From: an uncultured Tateyamaria sp.
Lineage (GTDB): Bacteria > Pseudomonadota > Alphaproteobacteria > Rhodobacterales > Rhodobacteraceae
NCBI GenBank assembly: GCA_905480645.1
Contig: CAJQRC010000049.1
Coordinates: 1-64,000 of the forward strand
Length of the DNA: 64,000 nt
Reading direction: 5' to 3'
Numbering within the stretch: position 1 is the first letter of the stretch; the number at the start of each line of letters is the position of its first letter. The position numbers and the translations under genes are program-made. This document shows, piece by piece, positions 21,034-48,557 of this stretch. The notes beneath the pieces were generated by a model. That model saw only the letters and a list, made by a program, of their open reading frames with translations. It did no database searches and was not told where the DNA came from.

Positions 21034-21330
21034 ATGGGACTATTGAAAAAAGAAGTTGAGCATGCTCCTTGCACAGTTGAGATTTCTCACAAATTTGAGA
21101 GCCTGCACGCACATGTGCGTTTTAACAATGGTGCTGTGATCTACCCTGGTGACGAAGTGCAAGTACAAGGTCCTGAAATTATGGCGCCTTTTGGCGAAAT
21201 TGTTTCTGAAGAACGGGAAGCCAAAATCATTCGTGCTAGTAGGCTGGAGCAACTTTGGACCCGTTTAACCGGTGATTTTGAAGTAATGGAACTGTGTGAA
21301 TTTTCTTTTTCTGAGGATGCCAGACTATGA
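21034..21330 (+). CDS. bciE: BciE, accessory subunit of the oxidative cyclase
   Basis: A 98-residue soluble protein between puhC and acsF. In alphaproteobacteria this position holds BciE, which is required together with AcsF for the O2-dependent Mg-protoporphyrin IX monomethylester cyclase; the betaproteobacterial enzyme works without it and the oxygenic one uses Ycf54. The sequence has no membrane helix. It has a YPGDEVQVQGPEI segment and an acidic C-terminus, and it overlaps acsF by 4 bases, consistent with a stoichiometric partner. The call rests on position and size plus resemblance to the family as I remember it. An alternative label in older annotations is hypothetical protein. Confidence 0.85.
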   Translation: MGLLKKEVEHAPCTVEISHKFESLHAHVRFNNGAVIYPGDEVQVQGPEIMAPFGEIVSEEREAKIIRASRLEQLWTRLTGDFEVMELCEFSFSEDARL

Positions 21331-36901: not shown

Positions 36902-38640
36902 TAGAATAAAAAGTATCGTTGTGCCATTGGCAGTTCTGTGGCGGGTTCGCAGGTTAATAATTCACCGTTTGCACGGACTTCATAGGTTTCGGGGTTCACT
37001 TCCATATGAGGTGTTGCAGAATTATGAATTAGATTGGATTTACCTATATTGCGGGTATTCTCGACAGCGACAGTTTTTTTTGACAACCCAAGCTTGTCAC
37101 TGATTCTATCTTCTTGGGCTGCTGCAGATACGAAACAAACAGCAGAATGCTCAACAGATCTACCAAAAGCCCCAAACATGGGCCGAGAATAGACTGGTTG
37201 TGGTGTGGGAATTGAGGCATTTGGGTCGCCCATCTGTGCACAAACAATTGTACCTGCCATTAATACCATTTCGGGTTTTACGCCAAAAAATGCAGGGTTC
37301 CAAAGTACCAAGTCTGCACGTTTACCCTCTGTGATGCTGCCGATTTCAGAACTTATACCATGGGCAATTGCAGGATTAATTGTATATTTTGCGATGTAGC
37401 GGCGTACACGAAAATTATCGTTTTCACCAGTTTCCTCGTGAAGGCGCCCACGCTGTTTTTTCATTTTATCTGCTGTTTGCCATGTACGGATTAACACCTC
37501 TCCCACCCTGCCCATAGCTTGGCTATCAGACGCAATAATTGAAAATGCACCCATATCATGCAAGATATCCTCCGCTGCAATAGTCTCTCGGCGGATACGA
37601 CTTTCGGCAAAGGCTACGTCTTCCGGGATGGATTTGTCTAAATGGTGACAAACCATCAACATATCCAGATGTTCTTCCAAAGTGTTGACCGTATATGGTC
37701 GTGTGGGGTTGGTAGAGGAGGGAAGCACGTGTTCTTCACCGCATATTTTGATGATATCAGGCGCGTGGCCACCTCCCGCTCCTTCTGTATGAAATGCGTG
37801 GATGGTGCGATTTTTCATGGCTGCTACGGTGGTTTCTACAAAGCCAGACTCATTTAAAGTGTCGGTGTGGATCATTACCTGGACGTCCATGTCGTCTGCG
37901 ACCGAAAGACAGCAGTCGATGGCGGCTGGTGTAGTCCCCCAATCTTCATGTAGTTTCAGAGCGCAAGCACCGCCTTTAACCATTTCCACCAATGCATCTG
38001 GCTGGCTGGCATTACCTTTGCCTGCAAAGGCTAGATTCATTGGAAAGGCATCAGCGGCTTGTAGCATTCGCCCTATATGCCAAGGACCTGGGGTGCAGGT
38101 CGTTGCAAGAGTGCCATGCGCTGGTCCCGTACCACCGCCCAGCATTGTAGTTAGCCCAGAGTGTAGTGCATCTTCAATTTGTTGGGGGCAGATAAAATGA
38201 ATATGGCTGTCAAAACCACCAGCGGTCAAGATTTTCCCTTCCCCTGCAATAGCTTCGGTTCCTGGACCTATAATTATGTCAATGCCTGGTTGCGTGTCAG
38301 GATTGCCTGCTTTGCCAATCTTATGAATTCGCCCATCGCGTAAGCCAACATCTGCTTTGTATATGCCGGCGTGATCAACAATCAAAGCATTGGTGATCAC
38401 AGTGTCAACGGCTCCTGCTGCACGCGTTATTTGAGATTGCCCCATACCATCACGGATGACTTTACCGCCACCAAATTTAACTTCCTCTCCGTAGGTTAAC
38501 CCTTTTTGGCCATTGGTGCGTTCTGCTGTCAAATCACGCTCGACCTCAATAATGAGATCCGTATCGGCAAGGCGAATCTTGTCGCCAACAGTTGGTCCAA
38601 ACATGGCAGCGTAATCTGCGCGGCTGATTGAACTTGCCAT
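36901..38640 (-). CDS. ureC: Urease alpha subunit
   Basis: Catalytic subunit of urease, hydrolysing urea to ammonia and carbamate, 579 residues. Active-site landmarks: SHIHFI (His146, His148) as Ni ligands, Lys229 in ALKLHEDWG as the carbamylated bridging lysine, and the mobile-flap segment [13 protein letters not shown] with the flap Cys-His. The ATG at 38640 overlaps the ureB stop by one base; a TTG one codon earlier is not needed. A few extra residues compared with the common ~570 are spread through the C-terminal half. Confidence 0.97.
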
Positions 38641-47805: not shown

Positions 47806-48022
47806 CTGATCGTTACTGAAAGAAAAGCTTGATGATCTCTAAATCGAATGCGAAAATGCATGTTTGAATTAATATTATTCTTATTTCTTTCGGTTTTCGT
47901 AGTTTTTCTACAGCGAAAGAAGAAGCATAGACGTAACCGTAATTTTACTGCCAGACTAATAAGCCGTTCATTCAGTAGAACCCCGTTTATTAAGAAGAAA
48001 AATTAGCTATCTTAGTTGTGCG

Positions 48023-48090
48023 GCTAGGCTCACTCCCCTCCCAAACAGAGAGCCTAGCGACCTAATCTCAAGCGCATGCTGGCATGTGCG
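48023..48090 (+). ncRNA. Candidate anti-SD small RNA 1
   Basis: GCTAGGCTC (48023-48031) pairs perfectly with GAGCCTAGC (48050-48058). The 18-base loop holds TCCCCTCCC, complementary to Shine-Dalgarno sequences. A second hairpin follows at 48072-48089 (stem with CTGG loop). Strand is assumed plus from the loop polarity: on the minus strand the loop would be G-rich. Ends are not defined and no promoter was identified. Confidence 0.45.
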
Positions 48091-48248
48091 AGACATTCTT
48101 TGTTTATAAAGTGATAAGTTATTAATCAGTAACCTGGCTCATTGCCGCATATTTAATACATGTATTGCAGTTACTTATGCATATTTTGCATGGCGGAAAT
48201 GCAATATTGGTGATTGCTGCATCGCAGAATTGCAGGCATATCATACGC

Positions 48249-48347
48249 AACGGATGGTTCCTCCCTGAACATTTGTTTGTTTTGAAAATTCTTCCTCCCA
48301 GAAATTTTCAATGTTATGGCGGTACCTTCGGGTATCGCCTTTTTTTT
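48249..48347 (+). ncRNA. Candidate CcsR/cuckoo-like small RNA
   Basis: Two consecutive hairpins each expose an anti-Shine-Dalgarno loop, followed directly by a Rho-independent terminator. Hairpin A: 48249-48277, GGTTC/GAAC inner stem with loop CTCCCT. Hairpin B: 48282-48311, TTGAAAATT/AATTTTCAA 9-bp stem extended by CT/AG, loop TCCTCCC. Terminator: 48318-48347. In Rhodobacter the CcsR RNAs consist of two stem-loops with CCUCCUCCC loops and are induced by oxidative and other stress. The layout here is the same, but the usual upstream DUF1127 gene (ccaF1) was not found. Confidence 0.55.
48318..48347 (+). terminator. Strong intrinsic terminator with UUCG loop
   Basis: GGCGGTACC-TTCG-GGTATCGCC followed by eight T: a 9-bp stem (one G-U), a super-stable UUCG tetraloop and a perfect U-tract. 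No protein gene ends before it on the plus strand within 500 bases, so it must end a non-coding transcript. Confidence 0.92.
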
Positions 48348-48498
48348 GCTTACAAAGCTCTCAATAAAAAGTTTCTGAGTATGGTATTTTTATTTCATAA
48401 CAGTATTTTTTAATGTCCAAACTCAAAATTAATTATTCTTTGTATAAGGTAATGGGGGACAACTTAAAATTTAGGCTTTGGATTTCTCAAAGATTTTG

Positions 48499-48557
48499 TC
48501 ATGAGCGTCAATCAGGTTAAATCATACTTTCAGCCAGTTTAGTAACCGGTCATGATT
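48499..48557 (+). promoter_or_regulatory. Structured leader of the MetE-like gene
   Basis: TCATGA (48499-48504) can pair with TCATGA (48550-48555), while AATCAT (48520-48525) can pair with ATGATT (48552-48557). Both pairings use the same 3' bases and enclose a CCAGTT-TAGT-AACCGG hairpin (48534-48549). Two mutually exclusive folds upstream of a methionine-synthase-like gene suggest, but do not prove, a metabolite-sensing leader. It matches no SAM riboswitch consensus I can recall. Confidence 0.25.

Follow-up and report, generated by a model that had tools for sequence, protein, structure and literature searches.

Positions 48249 to 48347 of the window (the whole stretch of 64,000 nucleotides of DNA from an uncultured Tateyamaria sp. 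that was analysed) are best read as the gene of a divergent, solo small RNA of the cuckoo type (ar14/CcsR) with anti-Shine-Dalgarno (anti-SD) loops. The gene would stand behind a CIN1-like control region, would probably be regulated by a LysR-type protein, and would be one part of an operon that has been split; we put the probability of this reading as a whole at roughly two in three. The evidence was obtained computationally and concerns the structure, its compensatory changes, its duplication, its homologues and its upstream resemblance. Judging from the sequence, the interval most likely holds a small RNA gene that is conserved and duplicated, and by analogy the module probably works like a cuckoo RNA.

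The module occupies 325 bases (48023-48347), in which three hairpins and a terminator are found, and lies inside a larger repeat. The features are as follows:

48018-48529, plus strand: repeat unit, with a second copy on contig 17 (L021 8342-8853) at 96.7% identity over 512 bases
48023-48058, plus strand: HP0, an isolated upstream hairpin with CCCCUCCC in its loop and two 12-nt arms, 92% complementary
48175-48233, plus strand: CIN1-like upstream region, matched by model R1 (17.3 bits, E 3.1e-4 over 125 kb)
48187-48201, plus strand: first VtlR/CIN1-like box, TGCATGGCGGAAATG, with 2 mismatches to TGCATRGCRGCATTG and 3 to the published VtlR motif
48218-48232, plus strand: second box, TGCATCGCAGAATTG, overlapping a palindrome at 48215-48229 that fits the PhaR consensus on both strands
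48239-48251, plus strand: predicted -10 and start-site region, placed by alignment with CIN1 upstream regions and by the start of the first stem
48249-48277, plus strand: HP1, an anti-SD hairpin of 11 pairs and one bulge, loop CUCCCU (UUCCUCCCU with the closing pairs)
48282-48311, plus strand: HP2, an anti-SD hairpin of 9 possible pairs, loop CUUCCUCCCAGA
48318-48347, plus strand: Rho-independent terminator, with a stem (48318-48339) of 9 pairs, one of them G-U, a UUCG loop, and then 8 T

A preliminary description of this DNA had proposed three stem-loops and a terminator in a cuckoo-like architecture with anti-SD loops, a divergent loop motif, and an isolated anti-SD hairpin upstream. All four elements were found where it had placed them, as hairpins with CUCCC-type loops followed by a terminator. 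The loops of HP1 and HP2 hold UUCCUCCC instead of CCUCCUCCC, the loop motif of cuckoo RNA and ar14, which is absent from the module's loops. HP0 proved to be part of the module, since the same hairpin in the same order was found in another genome (G378, see below). Folding, a check suggested at the time, gave -29.2 kcal/mol for 48240-48347, far better than the shuffles (mean -18.9, sd 2.9; z -3.6; none of 200 as good), whereas the HP0 region (48005-48110) was less striking (z -1.45; 15 of 200 shuffles equally good). Two of the 25 CTCCC sites on the plus strand of the window lie in a perfect stem (at least 6 pairs, offsets up to 6 nt), and these are the loops of HP1 and HP2; on the minus strand one of 19 passes the same test, which misses HP0 because of its wider loop. 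Directly before the module lies a putative 52-aa frame (47848-48006), which ends 17 nt upstream of HP0 and has no Pfam family.

Cuckoo RNAs, which include ar14/NfeR1 (RF02344), CcsR1-4 of R. sphaeroides (CcsR1, RF02791) and those of the CIN1 loci, share with the module variable stems, anti-SD loops, a terminator and several copies per genome, and the upstream element of the family's CIN1 loci bears a resemblance, modest for the window copy, to the region ahead of the module. Their loop motif is given as CCUCCUCCC (PMC3927594, PMC10746234). The module differs from them in its two UUCCUCCC loops, in a predicted transcript without a DUF1127 gene, in the separate HP0 with its conserved stem letters, and in scoring below both Rfam cut-offs. 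Membership of CcsR or ar14, for which the preliminary description had pointed to the Rfam models, was not borne out by them: the module scored 23.7 bits with ar14, against a gathering cut-off of 58.8, and was absent from the matches to CcsR1 (cut-off 65.3 bits) at E <=10. At E <=10 the module was matched by suhB/mmgR (24.7 bits), sbrA (24.2 bits) and ar14 (23.7 bits), all far below cut-off, and only in the alignment with ar14 do the two CCUCC motifs fall within hairpin loops. The only match in the window at gathering score, 5_ureB_sRNA (38169-38458, 114 bits), is unrelated to the module and is perhaps just conserved urease coding sequence.

A search of the organism's own genome with ar14, filters on, gave no match at E <=10. 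Of 61 genomes searched with ar14, 39 gave a match, often as arrays and in 4 above cut-off; all 19 genomes labelled with the same genus were among the 39, whereas the own genome was not. The label may be loose, as GC content is 43.7% in the window and about 58-65% in the ar14 loci so labelled, and those genomes are 1-2 Mb larger. One ar14 locus (L023 of genome G025, 1520-2123 in the oriented locus) carries a long anti-SD array with 30 overlapping CCTCC matches, which amount to about 15 loops over a span of some 600 bases.

Homologues were sought by BLAST with 48225-48535 as the query (E <=0.001) in 394 genomes that cover the family at close to one per genus, and five of these, the own genome included, gave matches. 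Homologues, partial or complete, thus occur in three other genera: G365 (L142) carries two hairpins plus the terminator, G378 (L143) carries the complete module, HP0 included at a distance of about 200 bases upstream and with CUCCUCCC in three loops, and G088 (L144) carries one CCTCCC hairpin plus the terminator. The match in G291 (L145) covers only bases beyond the terminator and was rejected. When the 394 genomes were scanned with 24 bases of HP0 as a pattern, allowing 3 mismatches at most, it occurred in 2, the own genome and G378, and in both without mismatch. The neighbours of the solo RNA vary, being a GcvT-type protein in G378, MoeA in G365 and a tRNA in G088. The G378 RNA, which takes an intermediate position, scored 31 bits with ar14, and those of G365 and G088 gave no match at E <=1.

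Conservation of the stems had been named beforehand as a test, and the stems were found to be kept by compensatory changes. In an alignment of HP2 and the terminator, comprising four rows of which two are nearly identical, 5 of 18 pairs showed changes on both sides, with 94.4% of cells paired; none of 500 shuffles scored as high, and slid controls reached 39-53%. Four of the changed pairs belong to the terminator, where 100% of cells are paired, and one to HP2, where 88.9% are paired and 5 of 9 pairs are invariant in the four rows. HP1 was excluded from this count because it was misaligned by MAFFT; folded singly, its stems are paired in the window, G365 and G378 with different letters. The variable helices that are characteristic of cuckoo RNAs are therefore clear in HP1 only, the stems of HP2 being partly conserved.

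The own genome (G000; 3.07 Mb in 67 contigs) carries its second copy of the module on contig 17, where it is also intergenic, and the flanks of the two repeat copies are unrelated. The repeat starts at 48018, at the base of HP0, and ends at about 48529. The copies differ at 17 positions, of which 8 lie before 48497; none falls within 48248-48496, where 249 bases are identical, and the similarity weakens after 48496. Five of the eight early differences sit in the 16 nt of 48232-48247, in the predicted -10 and start region, an outcome reached in 0.00016 of trials in which 8 differences were placed at random in 479 bases, although this value is optimistic because the interval was picked after the cluster had been seen. 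We infer that the RNA has been retained while its start region changes. The HP0 stem is shorter in the window than in the contig-17 copy (-16.3 vs -24.2 kcal/mol). BLAST of 361 bases against 61 relatives returned the second own copy and otherwise only short matches (E >=0.0017), and no match to the module was found by BLAST in plasmids or in phages.

Two near-identical copies at unrelated sites, in a repeat that begins at the HP0 base, could also be expected of a small mobile or dispersed DNA element, whose hairpins would serve movement or form the element's ends instead of acting as RNA; that HP0 and the module together are common to just 2 of 394 genomes, in different gene neighbourhoods, points the same way. 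However, only two copies were found in the genome, there is no transposase, no terminal inverted repeats were found, and no target-site duplication was seen by eye. Compensatory changes keep the pairs, and the terminator lies on the RNA strand. We consider this explanation improbable, and duplication is compatible with RNA function.

It is also conceivable that no regulatory RNA exists here, and that the hairpins stand before a terminator by chance or are part of a small coding gene, for which an 82-aa frame (48165-48413) is available that is open in both copies. A look-alike with two TTCCTCCC sites and a terminator does occur behind traC of IncP plasmids. Nonetheless, the stems are kept with different letters in other genera, the 82-aa frame crosses the terminator, and the differences between the copies cluster at the predicted start site, so that we hold this account to be very improbable indeed. 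The look-alike came to light when the genome collection was scanned for two occurrences of TTCCTCCCWG followed by T6, a pattern that gave 28 stretches (L069-L096). Twenty-two of these are one identical sequence behind traC and were rejected as homologues; the sequence, seen also in L139 and L140 (4001-4110), places its two sites and a perfect terminator 31 bases after traC, and is nearly unchanged on 1761 plasmid records. A comparable pair of TTCCTCCCAG loops was seen in an uncultured Pseudovibrio (L085 5606-5693), the second apparently, by eye, on the terminator stem, and the other five stretches were set aside as chance-like by eye. A looser pattern scan of viral contigs gave 39 stretches, which were viewed by eye.

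For the control region, 30 ar14 loci from the search of 61 genomes were examined. The element TGCATRGCGGCAWTGCA, sought on the sense strand with no more than 3 mismatches, was present in 27 of them, always ahead of the array's first CCTCC, and was lacking in L026, L034 and L052; a DUF1127 frame was present in 29. One locus (L050 of G026) has two CIN1-like elements and several DUF1127 frames. These ar14 loci fit the CIN1 locus as described in PMC10253847, where a DUF1127 gene often adjoins the RNA. Their upstream regions can be aligned from ATGCAATTGC to TCAACG, across the box, another half box and a TAT stretch that resembles a -10 element. A sequence-only model, R1, was built from 26 of the 27 element-bearing loci, L051, the most divergent, being omitted by hand and the own genome unused.

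R1 was run on 16 sources outside model building, 125 kb in all, where the best match (1.3e-16) was L137, a DUF1127 locus of the own genome. It also matched the DUF1127 loci L155, L157, L160 and L158, as well as L056, and detected four of the five solo RNA loci (G365, 1.2e-4; contig 17, 2.7e-4; the window, 3.1e-4; G088, 0.011). In the same 125 kb it missed the solo RNA of G378, the DUF1127 loci L136, L156, L159 and L161, and L055. In the window with filters off, 48175-48214 was the top match (11.4 bits, E 0.011), the next reaching 6.9 bits. On the whole own genome, among the ten matches listed, L137 (3.2e-15) was followed by the phaC-phasin region (0.0029), a site at an ATP synthase-like gene (by eye, 0.0033), the contig-17 RNA (0.0068), the neighbour of a pyruvate carboxylase-like gene (0.07), two matches at 0.21, one of which is the window RNA, and three weaker ones. 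The second of these lies at L166 1501-1553, between phaC and the phasin gene and upstream of phaR; PhaR boxes are similar in appearance to the CIN1 element. The upstream resemblance to CIN1 is thus firm when the loci are taken together and modest when the window copy is taken by itself.

An RpoH- or EcfG-type promoter between 48090 and 48249 had been put forward for testing. A sigma-70 scan found no site between 48090 and 48250, and 48175-48250 instead resembles the upstream regions of DUF1127-cuckoo operons, with boxes like those of the LysR-type regulator VtlR. A core promoter of the RpoH type may still serve the module, because an RpoHI/RpoHII promoter is described for the ccaF1-CcsR operon of R. 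sphaeroides (PMC10253847). The VtlR-binding motif of Brucella is quoted in PMC12595884 as CAATGCAGCCATGCA, which reads TGCATGGCTGCATTG on the opposite strand. It was fitted in all 26 upstream regions of R1 with 1 mismatch (11 regions) or 2 (15 regions), that is, at 13-14 of 15 positions, while the best of 5200 mononucleotide shuffles had 3 mismatches, in 7 cases. L137 has 2 mismatches, the solo RNAs of the window, contig 17, G365 and G088 have 3 (12 of 15 positions), which within the window alone is chance level, and that of G378 has 4. Counts of control boxes in the window against expectation were 4 vs 0.89 (2 of 100 shuffles), 2 vs 0.89 (24 of 100), 1 vs 1.05 (69 of 100) and 6 vs 3.1 (10 of 100); as they are mostly at chance level, the case is made by R1 and by position. 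VtlR activates AbcR2 and three DUF1127 genes in Brucella (PMC12595884), and LsrB activates NfeR1 in S. meliloti (PMC10746234). Together with these precedents, the upstream region suggests a LysR-type protein of the VtlR/LsrB kind as the probable regulator of the solo RNA.

The palindrome at 48215-48229 raises a different explanation, namely that the module is a member or relative of alphaR8 (MmgR, SisA-D; RF00519) and answers to polyhydroxybutyrate (PHB) stores through PhaR. The palindrome fits the consensus TGCRNYGCASMA (PMC6201568) on both strands, and PhaR represses mmgR in S. meliloti (PMC12542648). Among 174 loci, the three other such palindromes all lie near PHB genes, at a phasin gene (L003), at a 3-hydroxybutyrate dehydrogenase gene (L002), and, in the own genome, in the phaC/phasin interval upstream of phaR (L166), the region that R1 ranked second. 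But the palindrome is absent from G365 and G378, and 24 of 100 shuffles of the window contain as many by chance. The RNA itself shares with alphaR8 RNAs a UUCCUCCCU core, a terminator and sibling copies at separate places, the siblings SisA-D having unrelated upstream sequences (PMC12559287). HP1 with its UUCCUCCCU equals 9 of 10 bases of UUUCCUCCCU (PMC12559287), suhB/mmgR was the top lax Rfam match, and its top two matches in the own genome are the two module copies (E 0.0086). The suhB score of 24.7 bits is nevertheless below the cut-off of 41, and the alignment places CCUCCC out of register. Whereas alphaR8 RNAs carry their 10-mer once, single-stranded and preceded by a weak hairpin, and in most cases adjoin an N-formylglutamate amidohydrolase (FGase) gene, the module has its motif in two hairpin loops, and no such protein was found among the nine scanned. 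This explanation as a whole is in our view unlikely, and a cuckoo-type RNA is preferred. VtlR-type and PhaR regulators could both act on the module.

The preliminary description had also remarked on the missing DUF1127 partner, and rightly so: no DUF1127 was found among the nine neighbour proteins scanned at the module, and the two DUF1127 genes above cut-off in the own genome are both on other contigs. One of them, L137, has a CIN1 box without mismatch, and no CCTCC follows the DUF1127 gene in L137 up to 2524 or in L136 up to 2407 (about 900 bases). In G365 the DUF1127 locus (L157) has the element, and the next CCTCC stands at 1851 of the oriented locus. In G378 (L155) one CCTCCC hairpin follows the DUF1127 gene (CcsR1 26.4 bits, below cut-off), and in G088 (L158) two CTCCTCCC loops do so (ar14 41.2 and CcsR1 33.3 bits, both below cut-off); both genomes carry solo RNAs besides these linked hairpins. 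The DUF1127-cuckoo operon therefore appears to be split in the own genome, where one DUF1127 gene would retain the upstream element without hairpins behind it and the RNA would stand alone at two other loci. The genomes look like a series from joined to separate, in which the direction of change, from a joined operon, is our supposition.

As to mechanism, we infer that 48249-48347 is transcribed into a trans-acting RNA of about 100 nt with two anti-SD loops, from a control region like those of the family's DUF1127-cuckoo operons and probably under a VtlR/LsrB-type LysR regulator. NfeR1 needs its anti-SD seeds to repress ntrB (PMC10746234), and by analogy the loops of the module would pair with the ribosome-binding sites of several mRNAs and halt their translation. 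Duplex energies at 350 candidate starts in the window were best at 21034 (-18.1 kcal/mol; a 98-aa frame with no Pfam family), and no target is claimed, as any strong SD scores well. HP0 may be a third anti-SD hairpin, a remnant of an array, a DNA element, or a sponge on the opposite strand.

The Brucella regulon (PMC12595884) resembles the present case in that related control elements stand before DUF1127 genes and a small RNA at separate loci; the boxes here fit 12 of 15 positions, and the likeness concerns the control element. A wider, tentative and rather doubtful proposal is that across this alphaproteobacterial family one VtlR/LsrB regulon of the LysR type controls DUF1127 proteins and cuckoo RNAs, as with AbcR2 of Brucella, that the operon has been split in some lineages, with solo RNAs duplicated and diverging at their start sites, and that HP0 is a functional component as well, either a third anti-SD RNA or, from the opposite strand (GGGAGG loop), a sponge for the RNA itself. 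A link between DUF1127-CcsR and VtlR was not found in the best-ranked open-access full texts, and may be in print.

The module may connect the DUF1127-CcsR/cuckoo operons of Rhodobacteraceae, which are related to stress, with the regulon that VtlR/LsrB governs in Brucella and rhizobia, in which a LysR regulator turns on DUF1127 proteins and anti-SD RNAs. Since protein and RNA would lie at separate loci, such genomes would reveal any action in trans of the DUF1127 protein on the RNA, and a duplicated solo RNA with a similar control region suggests how regulators of this kind become separated and rewired.
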